From Natrinema salsiterrestre (GTDB lineage: Archaea; Halobacteriota; Halobacteria; Halobacteriales; Natrialbaceae): a stretch of 64,000 nt of DNA. A program made the position numbers and the translations under genes. Under the pieces are notes generated by a model, which was given only the letters and a program-made list of their open reading frames with translations, ran no database searches and had not been told where the DNA came from. How positions within the stretch are numbered: the stretch's first letter is position 1; each line of letters begins with the position of its first letter. The stretch spans positions 1 to 64,000 of the forward strand of contig NZ_JAMQOT010000008.1 in NCBI RefSeq assembly GCF_029502005.1, read 5' to 3'. This document shows, one piece after another, positions 27,912 to 57,698 of the stretch.

Positions 27912-28169
27912 TCAGTACTCGGAATCCTTCTCGAGCAGGCCGGGCGTGACCGTACAGCCGCAGGGAGAGGCGCTCGCCTCGAGCGGGCCGATGACTGAGA
28001 CGGCCCAGATGGGGGTGCCACAGAGGGGACAGTCGGGGAGCGCGGTGTCGAAGCGCTTCCGCGCCCGCTCGAGCGAGTACGGCGTGTCGCGGGTTCGAGT
28101 GGATTGCTCGCTGCTCGTGGAGTTCGCGTGCTCGCTCGAGGGTTCGGCAGAGGTGTGTTCGTCGCTCAT
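27912..28169 (-). CDS. CPxCG small zinc-type protein, copy 1 of a duplicated unit (85 aa)
   Basis: The C-terminal half has CPLCG at residues 47-51 and PCGC at 69-72, giving CX2C-X19-CXC, probably one zinc site. Copy 2 (57036-57260) has exactly the same spacing and shared residues LPDCPxCGxP, VxGP and PCGCxVxPGxL. The N-terminal 40 residues are disordered and Ser/Glu-rich. The frame is open to a GTG at 28241, but the ATG at 28169 has a GGAGG five bases before it, conserved in copy 2, so the start is set there. The gene shares a promoter block with a divergent structured RNA. Function is unknown; RNA binding would fit the context. Confidence 0.75.
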   Translation of the reverse strand: MSDEHTSAEPSSEHANSTSSEQSTRTRDTPYSLERARKRFDTALPDCPLCGTPIWAVSVIGPLEASASPCGCTVTPGLLEKDSEY

Positions 28170-28174
28170 CGTGC

Positions 28175-28179
28175 CCTCC
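28175..28179 (-). promoter_or_regulatory. ribosome binding site deciding the start of the CPxCG gene, copy 1
   Basis: GGAGG on the minus strand lies five bases before the ATG at 28169. Around it, GGAGGGCACGATGAGCGAC differs from copy 2 by a single base, so this part is conserved along with the promoter. Leadered translation with a Shine-Dalgarno site is the minority mode in haloarchaea. Confidence 0.7.
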
Positions 28180-28230
28180 GAGGTTGCCGTTGGCGGGCCG
28201 TGTGATCGGGTGCTGTCGCTGGTCGATTGA

Positions 28231-28272
28231 GTTGATTCCACTGTCGTTCGGGACGTTTATATCCCGATAGGA
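28231..28272. promoter_or_regulatory. shared bidirectional promoter block, copy 1
   Basis: These 42 bases match 57319-57360 at 41 positions. A TATA element TTTATAT (28256-28262) lies within CGGGA-CGTTTATA-TCCCG, a palindrome. Read rightward it predicts an RNA start near 28284, where the structured RNA begins; read leftward it predicts a start near 28233, where the conserved block ends, giving a 60-odd base leader for the CPxCG gene. Confidence 0.7.
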
Positions 28273-28283
28273 CGTACGTAATC

Positions 28284-28391
28284 ATGCTTCGGAACCCTTC
28301 CGGGTTTGGAAGCACGTCTCGGGTGTTTTGGGCACCCGGGGCATTTCGATACGCTACCCCCTGGTCGGGCGATTGGAGACGTGCTCCAATT
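28284..28391 (+). ncRNA. structured RNA, copy 1 of a duplicated family
   Basis: The predicted transcript begins 28 bases after the start of the TATA element. It folds into four successive hairpins: 28286-28313 (12-position stem with one G-G mismatch, loop TTCC), 28320-28338 (CGGGTG/CACCCG), 28338-28360 (GGGG/CCCC), and 28372-28390 (ATTGGAG/CTCCAAT). Copy 2 at 57372 keeps the first three with substitutions that preserve pairing. A 46-codon frame beginning at 28284 is broken by a stop in copy 2, so this is most likely non-coding. AT-rich DNA with a shared TTACTTATA follows both copies and may end transcription. The exact 3' end is unknown. Confidence 0.7.
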
Positions 28392-28644
28392 GAATGTTAT
28401 CGCACTATTACTTATAACTAATTCAAACGTTACTGATATCTATCCATTCTCAGCTCGAGTCCAGATTGTTCTCCGAAACGAACACTACCTGAGTAAGACC
28501 CCAGACACTACCACGGATCCCTGGTTTCGAGTCGAGGGAGGACACATCGGTCAGAGAGGGTGTTCAAATTGCCCGCCAGCAGTGTGGCTGTACGCCCATT
28601 TATATTCATTGAATTTTTTGATTGCGTACTAATATGATTGTAGC
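28392..28644. other. AT-richer spacer between the structured RNA and panB
   Basis: No ORF with coding character is present. It begins with the sequence containing TTACTTATA also found after RNA copy 2, and ends with a likely panB promoter (atttatatt near 28600, about 42 bases before the ATG, implying a short leader). Confidence 0.5.
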
Positions 28645-29497: not shown

Positions 29498-29878
29498 CTA
29501 TTCGGGCTCCGCTTCTTCGATCGCGATACGGTCGTTCGCCACATCGTCGAACGCTTTATCCGACGAAACGAGCGGGTCCTCATCTGCGTAAGCCGCGTGG
29601 TACGCGTCGAAGGCGGTGAGCCCGTCCTGCTCCATGTAGTCTGCTGCCTGGAACAGAACGCCTTCGTCCTCGGGGACCGCTGCAATCTCGAGTGCATAAG
29701 TGAGCGCTTCCATCCGATCGAACTCGAATCGATCCGAAATTACGAGCAATTCGAGCAGCGTCGCCCGTGAAGTATAGATCTCTCCTTCGTTCTCGAGAGC
29801 GATCTTGGCCGCGCGATCCTGGAGCCAATCGTCATCTTTGACCAGTGCGACGAAGAAGTCCGTATCGGCGTAGAGCAT
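29498..29878 (-). CDS. VapC-like PIN-domain toxin, module 1
   Basis: The 126-residue PIN domain carries the expected acidic residues: D5 (MLYADTDFFVAL), E43 (ATLLELLVIS), D91 (GLTAFDAYHAAY) and D107 (SSDKAFDDV). Such proteins are Mg-dependent RNases, often cutting tRNA. The antitoxin-like AbrB gene ends three bases before its ATG, as in a normal toxin-antitoxin operon. Sequence differs clearly from the other two PIN proteins of the window (56594, 63591). Confidence 0.88.
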   Translation of the reverse strand: MLYADTDFFVALVKDDDWLQDRAAKIALENEGEIYTSRATLLELLVISDRFEFDRMEALTYALEIAAVPEDEGVLFQAADYMEQDGLTAFDAYHAAYADEDPLVSSDKAFDDVANDRIAIEEAEPE

Positions 29879-29881
29879 CGA

Positions 29882-30136
29882 CTATTCCTCAGTTACGTCG
29901 TCGACAGCCTCTTCTCGAGCGGCCGCACGCGCCTCTCGCTTGATTTCCGCGATCGATTTGTCGTCGAAGGCGTCGCCGACGGCGTCACGAAGTCCCTCGA
30001 TAGGGTCGTCCTTAAGCGGGATCAGCTCGACCCGATCATTTAGCTCGATGACGCGGTATCGGTCGCCGTGTTTCTCCCTGATCTCGTGCGGGATGACGAT
30101 TCGACCTCGATCGTCGGCTTCGGCCGTTTTGCTCAT
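29882..30136 (-). CDS. AbrB/MazE-type antitoxin, module 1
   Basis: The 84-residue protein begins MSKTAEADDRGRIVIPHEIR, the swapped-hairpin AbrB DNA-binding motif, and continues to a C-terminal Ala/Glu helix (KREARAAAREEAVDDVTEE) that should cover the toxin. The longer in-frame start (30187) is rejected because the AbrB motif normally begins within a few residues of the N-terminus. It is the first gene of the toxin-antitoxin operon and probably autorepresses it. Confidence 0.87.
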   Translation of the reverse strand: MSKTAEADDRGRIVIPHEIREKHGDRYRVIELNDRVELIPLKDDPIEGLRDAVGDAFDDKSIAEIKREARAAAREEAVDDVTEE

Positions 30137-30337
30137 CTTGGTCTCCACTACTGGGGGAACGAACAAAAATATTCCCACGTGAATCACTAGCTTCCCCTAT
30201 TACCCGTCACGGACTGAACTGCAGAAACTCGAAGCGATCGTTCCACTAAAATTACGCGCAACTGCTGACTCTCTGCGAGGAATCACGACAACGACGAAAA
30301 ATCAGCGACGCCGAAATCAGCTCGAGCCCGAGCCCCC

Positions 30338-56294: not shown

Positions 56295-56597
56295 ATGAGT
56301 GCATCAGAATCATCGAGCGACTCTGAAAAGGAGATCGTCGCGGTCACCAAGCACGGTCAGGCGACGATTCCGAAGCGCTTCCGAGAGAAACTCGACATCG
56401 ACGCCCCCGGGAAAGTGCTGTTCCGAGAGACCGACGACGGCACCGTCGTCGTCGAACGGGTTCGCTCCGCGAGCGAGATGCAGGGGTTCGCCGCGCGCAG
56501 CGACCCGTCCACCGACACCCCTGCGACTGAGCTCCTTCGCGACAAACGGGCGCAGGACAAGTCCGAGCGAGACGCCCAGTTTTCGTCGGACAAATGA
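56295..56597 (+). CDS. AbrB-type antitoxin, module 2
   Basis: The 100-residue protein has the AbrB motif VTKHGQATIPKRFREKLDID near residue 20 and a C-terminal charged helix (LLRDKRAQDKSERDAQF). It is similar to the antitoxin at 63304 (GQATIPK is shared) but not closely to the one at 29882. The ATG at 56295 is about 30 bases from an AT-rich element. Its TGA overlaps the toxin ATG (ATGA). Confidence 0.87.
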   Translation: MSASESSSDSEKEIVAVTKHGQATIPKRFREKLDIDAPGKVLFRETDDGTVVVERVRSASEMQGFAARSDPSTDTPATELLRDKRAQDKSERDAQFSSDK

Positions 56598-57016
56598 CGG
56601 CGACGGCCGATCGAATCGTCTTCGACGCCGAGCCGTTAGTCGCACACGCTGCCGACGAACCGGGCGCGTCCACCGTTGCGAACTACCTCGACGCAGTCAG
56701 CGTCGACGGCAGCGACGGCTACATCAGCTGGGTGACCGTCTCCGAGGTCCGGTATATCCTCGCTCGAAAATACGATCGCGACGTCGCCGACGAGTATCTC
56801 GAGTGGGTGTTCGAGCTCGGACTCGAGCCGATCGACGTCGAGCCGGTCTGGTTCGACGCGTCCGAGCACGTCCTTGCCTCCAATCCGGCACTGGGCGATT
56901 CGTTCGCGCTGGCGACCGCGACCCACGTCGACGCGACGCTACTGGTCGGTGGCGACGACGATTACGACGACATCACCGACGTGCCAATCGAGCGCCTTCG
57001 CGACGGCTCGAGCTAA
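56594..57016 (+). CDS. VapC-like PIN-domain toxin, module 2
   Basis: The 140-residue PIN protein has D11 (RIVFDAEPLVAHAADEPG), E51 (WVTVSEVRYILARKY), D102 (NPALGDSFALATATHV) and D121 or D122 (VGGDDDYDDI). The opening FDAEPL(V/I)A and the LGDSxA motif are shared with the toxin at 63591, so modules 2 and 3 are paralogous. It acts as an RNase when not bound by the antitoxin. It ends 19 bases before the convergent CPxCG gene. Confidence 0.87.
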   Translation: MTATADRIVFDAEPLVAHAADEPGASTVANYLDAVSVDGSDGYISWVTVSEVRYILARKYDRDVADEYLEWVFELGLEPIDVEPVWFDASEHVLASNPALGDSFALATATHVDATLLVGGDDDYDDITDVPIERLRDGSS

Positions 57017-57035: not shown

Positions 57036-57260
57036 TCAGCCCCGCGGCGTCCGATCGAGGGTGCCCGGCAGCACCGAACAGCCGCAGGGTTCAGCGGTGC
57101 CGCTGCGCGGGCCAGTGACGGTCACGTTCGTGACGGGCTGGCCGCACACGGGGCAGTCGGGGAGTGAGAACACCCAGGGCTCGGGTGCGTCGCCCGTCTC
57201 GTCGGGATCGGATCGGTCGTCGCCGCTCGAGTCGCTGCCGGCCTCGCCGCGGTCGCTCAT
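57036..57260 (-). CDS. CPxCG small zinc-type protein, copy 2 of a duplicated unit (74 aa)
   Basis: The C-terminal half has CPVCG (36-40) and PCGC (58-61), identical in spacing to copy 1 (CX2C-X19-CXC). The N-terminal 28 residues are acidic and disordered. The frame is open to a GTG at 57329, but GGAGG (57266-57270) lies five bases before the ATG at 57260, conserved in copy 1. As there, the gene is divergent from a structured RNA and shares its promoter block. Function is unknown. Confidence 0.75.
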   Translation of the reverse strand: MSDRGEAGSDSSGDDRSDPDETGDAPEPWVFSLPDCPVCGQPVTNVTVTGPRSGTAEPCGCSVLPGTLDRTPRG

Positions 57261-57265
57261 CGCGC

Positions 57266-57270
57266 CCTCC
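57266..57270 (-). promoter_or_regulatory. ribosome binding site deciding the start of the CPxCG gene, copy 2
   Basis: GGAGG on the minus strand, five bases before the ATG at 57260. The segment GGAGGGCGCGATGAGCGAC differs from copy 1 by one base. Confidence 0.7.
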
Positions 57271-57318
57271 GCGGGTCGCGAGCGCGGGACAGAGCCGGAG
57301 CAGCCGCTGGTTCTCGAG

Positions 57319-57360
57319 GTTGATTCCACTGTCGTTCGGGACGTTTATATCCCGGTAGGA
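57319..57360. promoter_or_regulatory. shared bidirectional promoter block, copy 2
   Basis: 41 of 42 bases are identical to 28231-28272. TATA element TTTATAT at 57344-57350 within CGGGA-CGTTTATA-TCCCG. The predicted rightward start is near 57372 and the leftward start near 57321. Confidence 0.7.
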
Positions 57361-57371
57361 TGTACGCAGTC

Positions 57372-57475
57372 ATGCTTCGAGACCCTCTCGGGTTTGGAAG
57401 CAAGTCTCGGGTGCTGTGACACCCGGGGCATTTCGAGGCATGCCCCCTCCGCTCTCGCGTTTGGAGCCTTCCTTC
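57372..57475 (+). ncRNA. structured RNA, copy 2 of a duplicated family
   Basis: It begins at the same distance from the TATA element as copy 1. Hairpin 1 (57374-57401) keeps 11 pairs with two changes that swap G-U for A-U and A-U for G-U. Hairpin 2 (57408-57425) keeps CGGGTG/CACCCG with a different loop (ctgtga). Hairpin 3 (57425-57446) is a perfect 7-bp stem GGGGCAT/ATGCCCC, better than copy 1. The fourth hairpin is weak here. A frame from 57372 stops after 15 codons, arguing against a protein. The 3' end is an estimate. Confidence 0.68.
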
Positions 57476-57698
57476 CGATTAGATCGTTTACCTATAGTTA
57501 CTTATATCTACTGCTAATGGTTCAGATAACTAGCCGACGGTGCATCGACCACCCCGGAATCACCCCAGCCCAGCGCACGGTGACTCCCTCGACTCGTTAT
57601 CACGGTCGCTGCACTCGATTTCGTGAGTGTTCGCGGACTGAGACTGTCCAATTCGGCCGACAGCGGGGTTTTAACCCCCTGAATCCTACGTGTGGAAA

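Follow-up and report, generated by a model that had tools for sequence, protein, structure and literature searches.

A putative bistable 5' leader upstream of coupled leader peptide and zinc microprotein genes, repeated across Natrialbaceae genomes

The 64,000-nucleotide stretch of Natrinema salsiterrestre DNA analysed here (the window) carries two copies, A and B, of a compact unit in which a hairpin-rich leader precedes two coupled reading frames (Table 1). We consider it probable that this bistable 5' leader acts in cis as a translational switch over an operon for a leader peptide and a zinc microprotein. Each copy would form a small minus-strand operon, running from a TATA promoter through a folded 5' leader of ~100 nt into two frames. 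The first, of ~39 codons, would specify a basic leader peptide, and its stop codon overlaps the start codon of the second, which would specify an acidic zinc-ribbon microprotein. Pairing of leader strand b with strand a, in a three-way fold, would leave the c arm and the AUG of the leader peptide open, and pairing of b with c would bury that AUG. Ribosomes ending the leader peptide at the zinc-protein start may reinitiate there, and the switch would thereby set zinc-protein output. As for the signal, our guess is feedback from what the operon itself encodes, or else the binding of a metal or metabolite.

Table 1. Positions of the elements of the two units in the window (strand sequences are given for the minus strand).
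Feature	Positions	Strand	Evidence
Copy A, putative TATA-type promoter element, AATTAGTTATAAGT (family consensus CAGTAGnTATAAGT)	28410..28423	-	100 aligned copies
Copy A, structured 5' leader	28286..28390	-	conserved, covarying, strand-asymmetric a:b helix; two near-isoenergetic folds (180 copies)
Copy A, strand a, GGAGCACGTCTCC, complementary to b	28375..28387	-	sequence; a:b covariation
Copy A, hairpin GGGTG-loop-CACCC (variable loop 28326-28332)	28321..28337	-	stem essentially invariant, 98 copies
Copy A, strand b, GAGACGTGCTTCC, pairs with a or c	28308..28320	-	covariation; fold energies
Copy A, strand c, GAAGC, directly 5' of the upstream-frame AUG (28285-28283)	28286..28290	-	covariation; ATG conservation
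Copy A, upstream frame, 39 aa, MITYVLSGYKRPERQWNQ...RRAR; its TGA overlaps the zinc ATG	28166..28285	-	reading frame
Copy A, palindrome CGGGA-CGTTTATA-TCCCG, inside the upstream frame	28249..28266	.	arm covariation between copies
Copy A, Shine-Dalgarno GGAGG, inside the end of the upstream frame	28175..28179	-	SD-like counts
Copy A, zinc microprotein gene, 85 aa, CPLC...PCGC	27912..28169	-	sequence; family alignment; AlphaFold
Copy B, putative promoter element, CAGTAGATATAAGT	57500..57513	-	aligned copies
Copy B, structured 5' leader	57374..57476	-	covariance-model match, 133 bits; fold energies
Copy B, upstream frame, 38 aa, MTAYILPGYKRPERQWNQ...RRAR; its stop overlaps the zinc ATG	57257..57373	-	reading frame
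Copy B, palindrome CGGGACGTTTATATCCCG	57337..57354	.	sequence; arm covariation
Copy B, zinc microprotein gene, 74 aa, CPVC...PCGC	57036..57260	-	sequence; family alignment

Both loci (27912-28391 and 57036-57475) follow the same plan, as an earlier, sequence-only reading of the window had observed: a zinc-protein gene, a near-identical block and a hairpin-rich stretch, which matches at 89% of 119 bases between copies A and B. We also recover the two leftward genes it described, each encoding a C-x2-C-x19-C-x-C protein with GGAGG shortly 5' of the ATG. Its phrase "duplicated 29 kb away" is correct about the second copy and understates the extent of a dispersed family with 28 members in the N. 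salsiterrestre genome. A whole-genome BLAST search located the block with its hairpin stretch 26 times, and two further copies beside zinc genes were found with a zinc-protein profile and confirmed by covariance model. This recurrence of the block is far above chance. A covariance model built from 67 copies for the family survey matches in 81 of 125 Natrialbaceae genomes, representing 23 of 29 genera, with 28-32 copies in two Halovivax genomes, 29 in one Natronobiforma genome and at least 24 in some. In an exact-pattern scan all matches came from Natrialbaceae (Natrinema, Halopiger, Halovivax, Natrialba, Halostagnicola, Natronorubrum and other genera), save one chance-like match. Some large haloarchaeal plasmids bear the element, and none was found in viral contigs or phage records. 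The RNA element reaches the gathering threshold of no family in Rfam 15, and our search found no published description of the leader/zinc-protein unit. An absence of copies elsewhere, or RNA and protein genes lying apart, had been named beforehand as grounds for doubting the unit; we searched for both, and neither holds. We conclude that the unit is real and widespread, and apparently undescribed.

The zinc proteins of the window were said to have only the metal core in common. This is right, and 49 diverse members now define a single family with the common pattern C-P-x-C-G ... G-P ... P-C-G-C, in which C, C and P-C-G-C are invariant. AlphaFold predicts a confident zinc-ribbon-like core (pLDDT ~90) and a low-confidence N-terminal tail. 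A Foldseek search returned weak matches to ribosomal zinc ribbons, none at E <= 0.001, and no Pfam or NCBIfam family scored above its cut-off for the zinc protein. The anti-phage defence profiles of PADLOC match neither the zinc protein nor the leader peptide, and none of the known virus protein families matches the zinc proteins of the window. In its very small size, CPxCG motif and zinc-ribbon-like fold the protein resembles the haloarchaeal C(P)XCG zinc-finger micro-proteins such as HVO_0758, but its second metal motif is PCGC (C-x-C). The published description defines those micro-proteins by two C(P)XCG motifs (PMC10716476), whereas the protein described here has one CPxCG and one PCGC motif.

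A CPxCG...PCGC frame adjoins the element in 84 of 98 copies from several genera (9% in a random-position control), and a zinc-type frame is coupled to the upstream frame in 161 of 189 distinct copies. In the genome of N. salsiterrestre itself, 27 of the 28 strong zinc-protein matches adjoin an element, and the 28th, on contig 3 and away from any element, holds a stop codon. Because the two occur together almost always, the earlier proposal of a selected unit of RNA element and zinc gene is well founded. Frameshifted zinc genes are present in three copies (L025, L048 and L042). Although L025 and L048, from two species, both carry a frameshift in the coupled zinc gene, their elements are ~98% conserved, a hint that the RNA may retain a role by itself.

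A conserved minus-strand reading frame (M-I-x-Y-I-L-P-G-Y-K-R-P-A-R..., median 39 codons) starts with an ATG located precisely at the element edge; it varies in synonymous codons outside an internal palindrome. Its ATG is kept in 186 of 189 copies and Lys10 in 187. Of 161 copies, 155 keep this frame open as far as the zinc start, compared with 12 and 1 for the other two frames. The overlap between its stop and the start of the zinc gene is -1 in 82 copies, -5 in 29, -8 in 11 and of similar size in others, in ATGA-type and similar arrangements. Of 138 copies, 88 have an SD-like site no more than 16 nt 5' of the start of the zinc gene, against 2.9% at control positions inside the frame. The 42-base block shared by the two window copies had been taken for a promoter. 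Its near-identity stands, but since the conserved, coupled frame opens at the element edge on the minus strand, we assign the block to the first 14 codons of that frame; the case shows that what resembles a conserved promoter block may in fact conceal an upstream reading frame. Haloarchaeal overlapping gene pairs with internal Shine-Dalgarno sites undergo termination-reinitiation, and such sites are not used in ordinary haloarchaeal initiation (PMC6728339). The unit shares with these ATGA overlaps the overlapping stop and start and the intragenic Shine-Dalgarno site, and differs from them in its first gene, which encodes a leader peptide of 39 codons behind a putatively bistable leader, and in being repeated genome-wide.

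Read along the minus strand, the 5' part of the leader comprises strand a (GGAAGCC...), a variable hairpin and a conserved GAAAnGCnCCGGGUG-loop-CACCCG hairpin, and the 3' part comprises strand b (GAGAC...GGCUUCC), an apical hairpin and strand c (AAGCC), with the AUG immediately after it. Both a and c are complementary to strand b. A given a strand fits its own b strand better than those of other copies, also when swaps are confined to one genome (z 3.6 for one segment and 6.3 for another), and b:c complementarity exceeds that obtained by swapping over all copies (z 7.5). When the a:b and b:c folds of 180 copies were forced, their energies, calculated at 37 °C and 1 M salt, unlike the haloarchaeal cytoplasm, differed by a mean of -0.8 ± 4.4 kcal/mol, and the c arm with the AUG was computed to be unpaired to 0.58 versus 0.16 in the two folds. 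In both copies of the window the computation favours b:c, by 7 and 12 kcal/mol relative to the forced a:b fold, a preference that in copy A is partly an artefact of a mislocated a arm. RNAalifold, run on a MAFFT alignment, recovered hairpin 2 alone because the arms are misaligned there. We infer that the leader switches between the two folds in the cell and that something shifts their balance.

Weak covariance-model matches (E 1e-4 to 4e-8 per genome) identify distant relatives in other haloarchaeal families. Those with GGAAGAACGGUGCC / GGCACCGGUCUUCC / AAGACC-AUG precede SWIM-type zinc proteins on plasmid-size contigs, and those with AAGCC-AUG and matching a and b strands precede Cys-containing proteins and lie beside winged-helix regulators, one of which (L278) matches the virus regulator family phrog_2440 (8e-30). 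As these relatives keep the a/b/c-AUG logic with changed letters, they provide strong evidence that selection acts on the alternative pairing, beyond mere hairpin sequence.

The best conserved TATA box points leftwards from the distal end of the hairpin region. Its core, within CAGTAGnTATAAGT, is 99% conserved over 100 aligned copies, Halovivax included, and lies 30 nt before strand a, a position from which the operon would be transcribed. A rightward TTTATA is found ~29 nt before a plus-strand ATGG in most Natrialbaceae copies, and Halovivax has CCTTTTTG in its place. G-U pairs in the a:b helix fill ~150 cells when read in the minus sense versus 8 in the plus sense. The lower stem of hairpin 2, which contains two near-invariant G-U pairs, pairs fully only in the plus sense. 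Plus-strand folds also have a slightly lower mean energy; as a sole criterion for the strand, fold energy is ambiguous. Coding capacity of a rightward RNA from its ATG is ruled out by frames that shift between copies, and the plus-side genes differ or converge, with none shared whose leader such an RNA could be. Because of the reading-frame, strand-asymmetry and TATA evidence, we interpret the element as the 5' leader of the zinc-protein transcript. The same three lines argue against a divergent rightward RNA with its own promoter, as had been read from the letters; that direction is probably wrong, and the main selected RNA is probably the leader of the zinc operon. An additional plus-strand antisense RNA is possible, given the complete lower stem of hairpin 2 and the lower fold energy in the plus sense.

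Such an RNA is the core of a rival explanation in which the mRNA leader and coupled peptide are as outlined above, and a plus-strand transcript from the TTTATA of the palindrome would fold into the same hairpins and block leader-peptide translation via loop contacts. The precedent is the CopA/CopT-tap-repA leader of IncFII/R1 plasmids, which is hairpin-rich and has a small leader-peptide frame whose stop overlaps the start of the main gene and so couples the two in translation. The haloarchaeal unit has the same hairpin-rich leader and stop/start-coupled leader peptide, but its main gene encodes a zinc microprotein and not a replication protein, and it is mostly chromosomal and present in dozens of copies. 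We judge antisense control of this kind unlikely. In its favour are the spacing of the TTTATA in most Natrialbaceae copies, the full length of hairpin 2 in the plus sense only, and the sequences of loop 2 (mostly 6-7 nt), which are distinct among nearly all copies of a genome (for example 25/26, 26/26 and 24/24). However, the loops differ no more than their repertoire predicts (2 identical pairs within genomes versus 3.9 expected), and orthogonality within genomes is not significant (P 0.23). Halovivax elements are also devoid of the forward TATA, and the palindrome arms show no strand preference.

Over 11 ortholog pairs the hairpin tips diverge by 29-30%, the DNA beyond the promoter by 25% and the core by 0-2.5%. 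The tips hence change about as fast as neutral intergenic DNA, and hypervariability is no proof of a guide function. A pseudoknot of loop 2 within the same transcript gave no consistent signal over swapped loops. As the loop differences match the repertoire, a partner in the same transcript was not found and the tips are near-neutral, we do not claim a guide function. In a few pairs (window copy B with L050, L018 with L062) the tips have changed and the surroundings are nearly all unchanged, which looks like gene conversion between copies.

The palindrome arms covary strongly between copies (CGGGA...TCCCG to CGAGA...TCTCG, z 12) without strand preference, and the palindrome may therefore have an additional role; with its A/T-rich centre it is a possible operator, RNA hairpin or antisense promoter. 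This covariation would suit protein-binding autoregulation, in which the zinc protein or the arginine-rich peptide would repress the operon that encodes it by binding the hairpins or the palindrome, b:c being a mere start-site hairpin. The mean charges of the basic, arginine-rich leader peptide (+6.5) and of the acidic zinc protein (-6.0) are consistent with this view, to which we nonetheless assign a low probability: the near-equal fold energies and the triple complementarity fit a switch better. Exchange of the second protein bears on autoregulation in both directions. In Halovivax other small zinc proteins, ECYRC...CCEHC or ACERC...CVDC, occupy the same place, so that the zinc domain is exchanged and the stop/start overlap retained. 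A partner that can be swapped beneath a constant leader (for other zinc families or a HalOD1-like domain) is compatible with autoregulation, and it also argues that the zinc protein is not the specific RNA binder.

Seven Halovivax loci (L122, L123, L125-L127, L132 and L133) keep the leader and upstream frame and have the zinc protein swapped for two small CxxC families. In six loci from one genus (L137, L138, L159, L306, L309 and L329) the coupled gene encodes a HalOD1-like signalling domain, assigned from a match below the Pfam cut-off, either alone or fused to the zinc domain.

The original model of the sequence-only reading, a rightward small RNA divergent from the promoter block and partnering the zinc protein, is very improbable: the TATA-like TTTATA at the right spacing and the RNA block conserved beside the frameshifted zinc gene of L025/L048 would agree with it, but the block is minus-strand coding sequence coupled to the zinc gene, G-U pairs in a:b are tolerated in the minus sense only, and Halovivax has no forward TATA. 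Equally hard to credit is a selfish, MITE-like mobile DNA repeat carrying a small gene by chance, as might be suggested by the many dispersed copies per genome, the tandem units in L064 and the virus-type regulator beside one distant relative (L278), since coding and RNA constraints with covariation require function at the RNA and peptide levels, orthologous copies hold their position between related species, and viral contigs and phage records yielded none.

The proposed switch resembles translational riboswitches of the sequester/anti-sequester type. The 5' leader contains a conserved folded core (GAAAnGCnCCGGGUG-n6-CACCCG and the covarying a:b helix), closed by a helix whose 3' strand can alternatively pair at a start codon; by computation, the two folds are mutually exclusive and one hides the start. 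As in riboswitches, the leader is placed before one kind of gene. Unlike in riboswitches, the start codon that is buried belongs to a leader peptide, Rfam holds no match, and up to 32 copies occur per genome, nearly all before small zinc proteins. More speculatively, and with considerable doubt on our part, the elements could form a haloarchaea-wide class of RNA switches, with ~30 copies per genome in Natrialbaceae, in which one signal (a metal, a metabolite or a cognate antisense RNA) would set the translation of many zinc microproteins via coupled leader peptides, and whose relatives would be plasmid-borne or adjoin virus-type regulators. Natural riboswitch-like leaders have received little description from haloarchaea, and a function is known for hardly any of their many zinc microproteins. 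The unit defined here is a computationally well-supported, multi-copy combination of RNA and leader-peptide control, and as it occurs in culturable Natrinema and Halovivax, questions about leader and microprotein become testable with reporters and RNA-seq.

Several further arrangements were noted around the elements. In L064 (1365-2030), two complete units with different loops and zinc proteins lie in tandem, 477 bp apart, and a similar close pair is present in another genome of that genus (G001, contig 67). A Halovivax locus (L121:1253-2545) has two near-identical elements 1.1 kb apart without a zinc gene, one of them followed by a ribbon-helix-helix-like gene. Four of the distant leaders (L266, L268, L272 and L278) are located between a winged-helix regulator and a divergent gene for a mostly Cys-containing protein, an arrangement resembling a virus or plasmid control region. 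In the window itself, PIN-domain genes (Pfam) with small AbrB/MazE-type partners, the one at 29882 assigned by eye only, form VapBC-like toxin-antitoxin pairs at 29498-30187 and 56295-57016. The first lies no more than ~1.5 kb from copy A, and the second is separated from copy B by ~20 bp.
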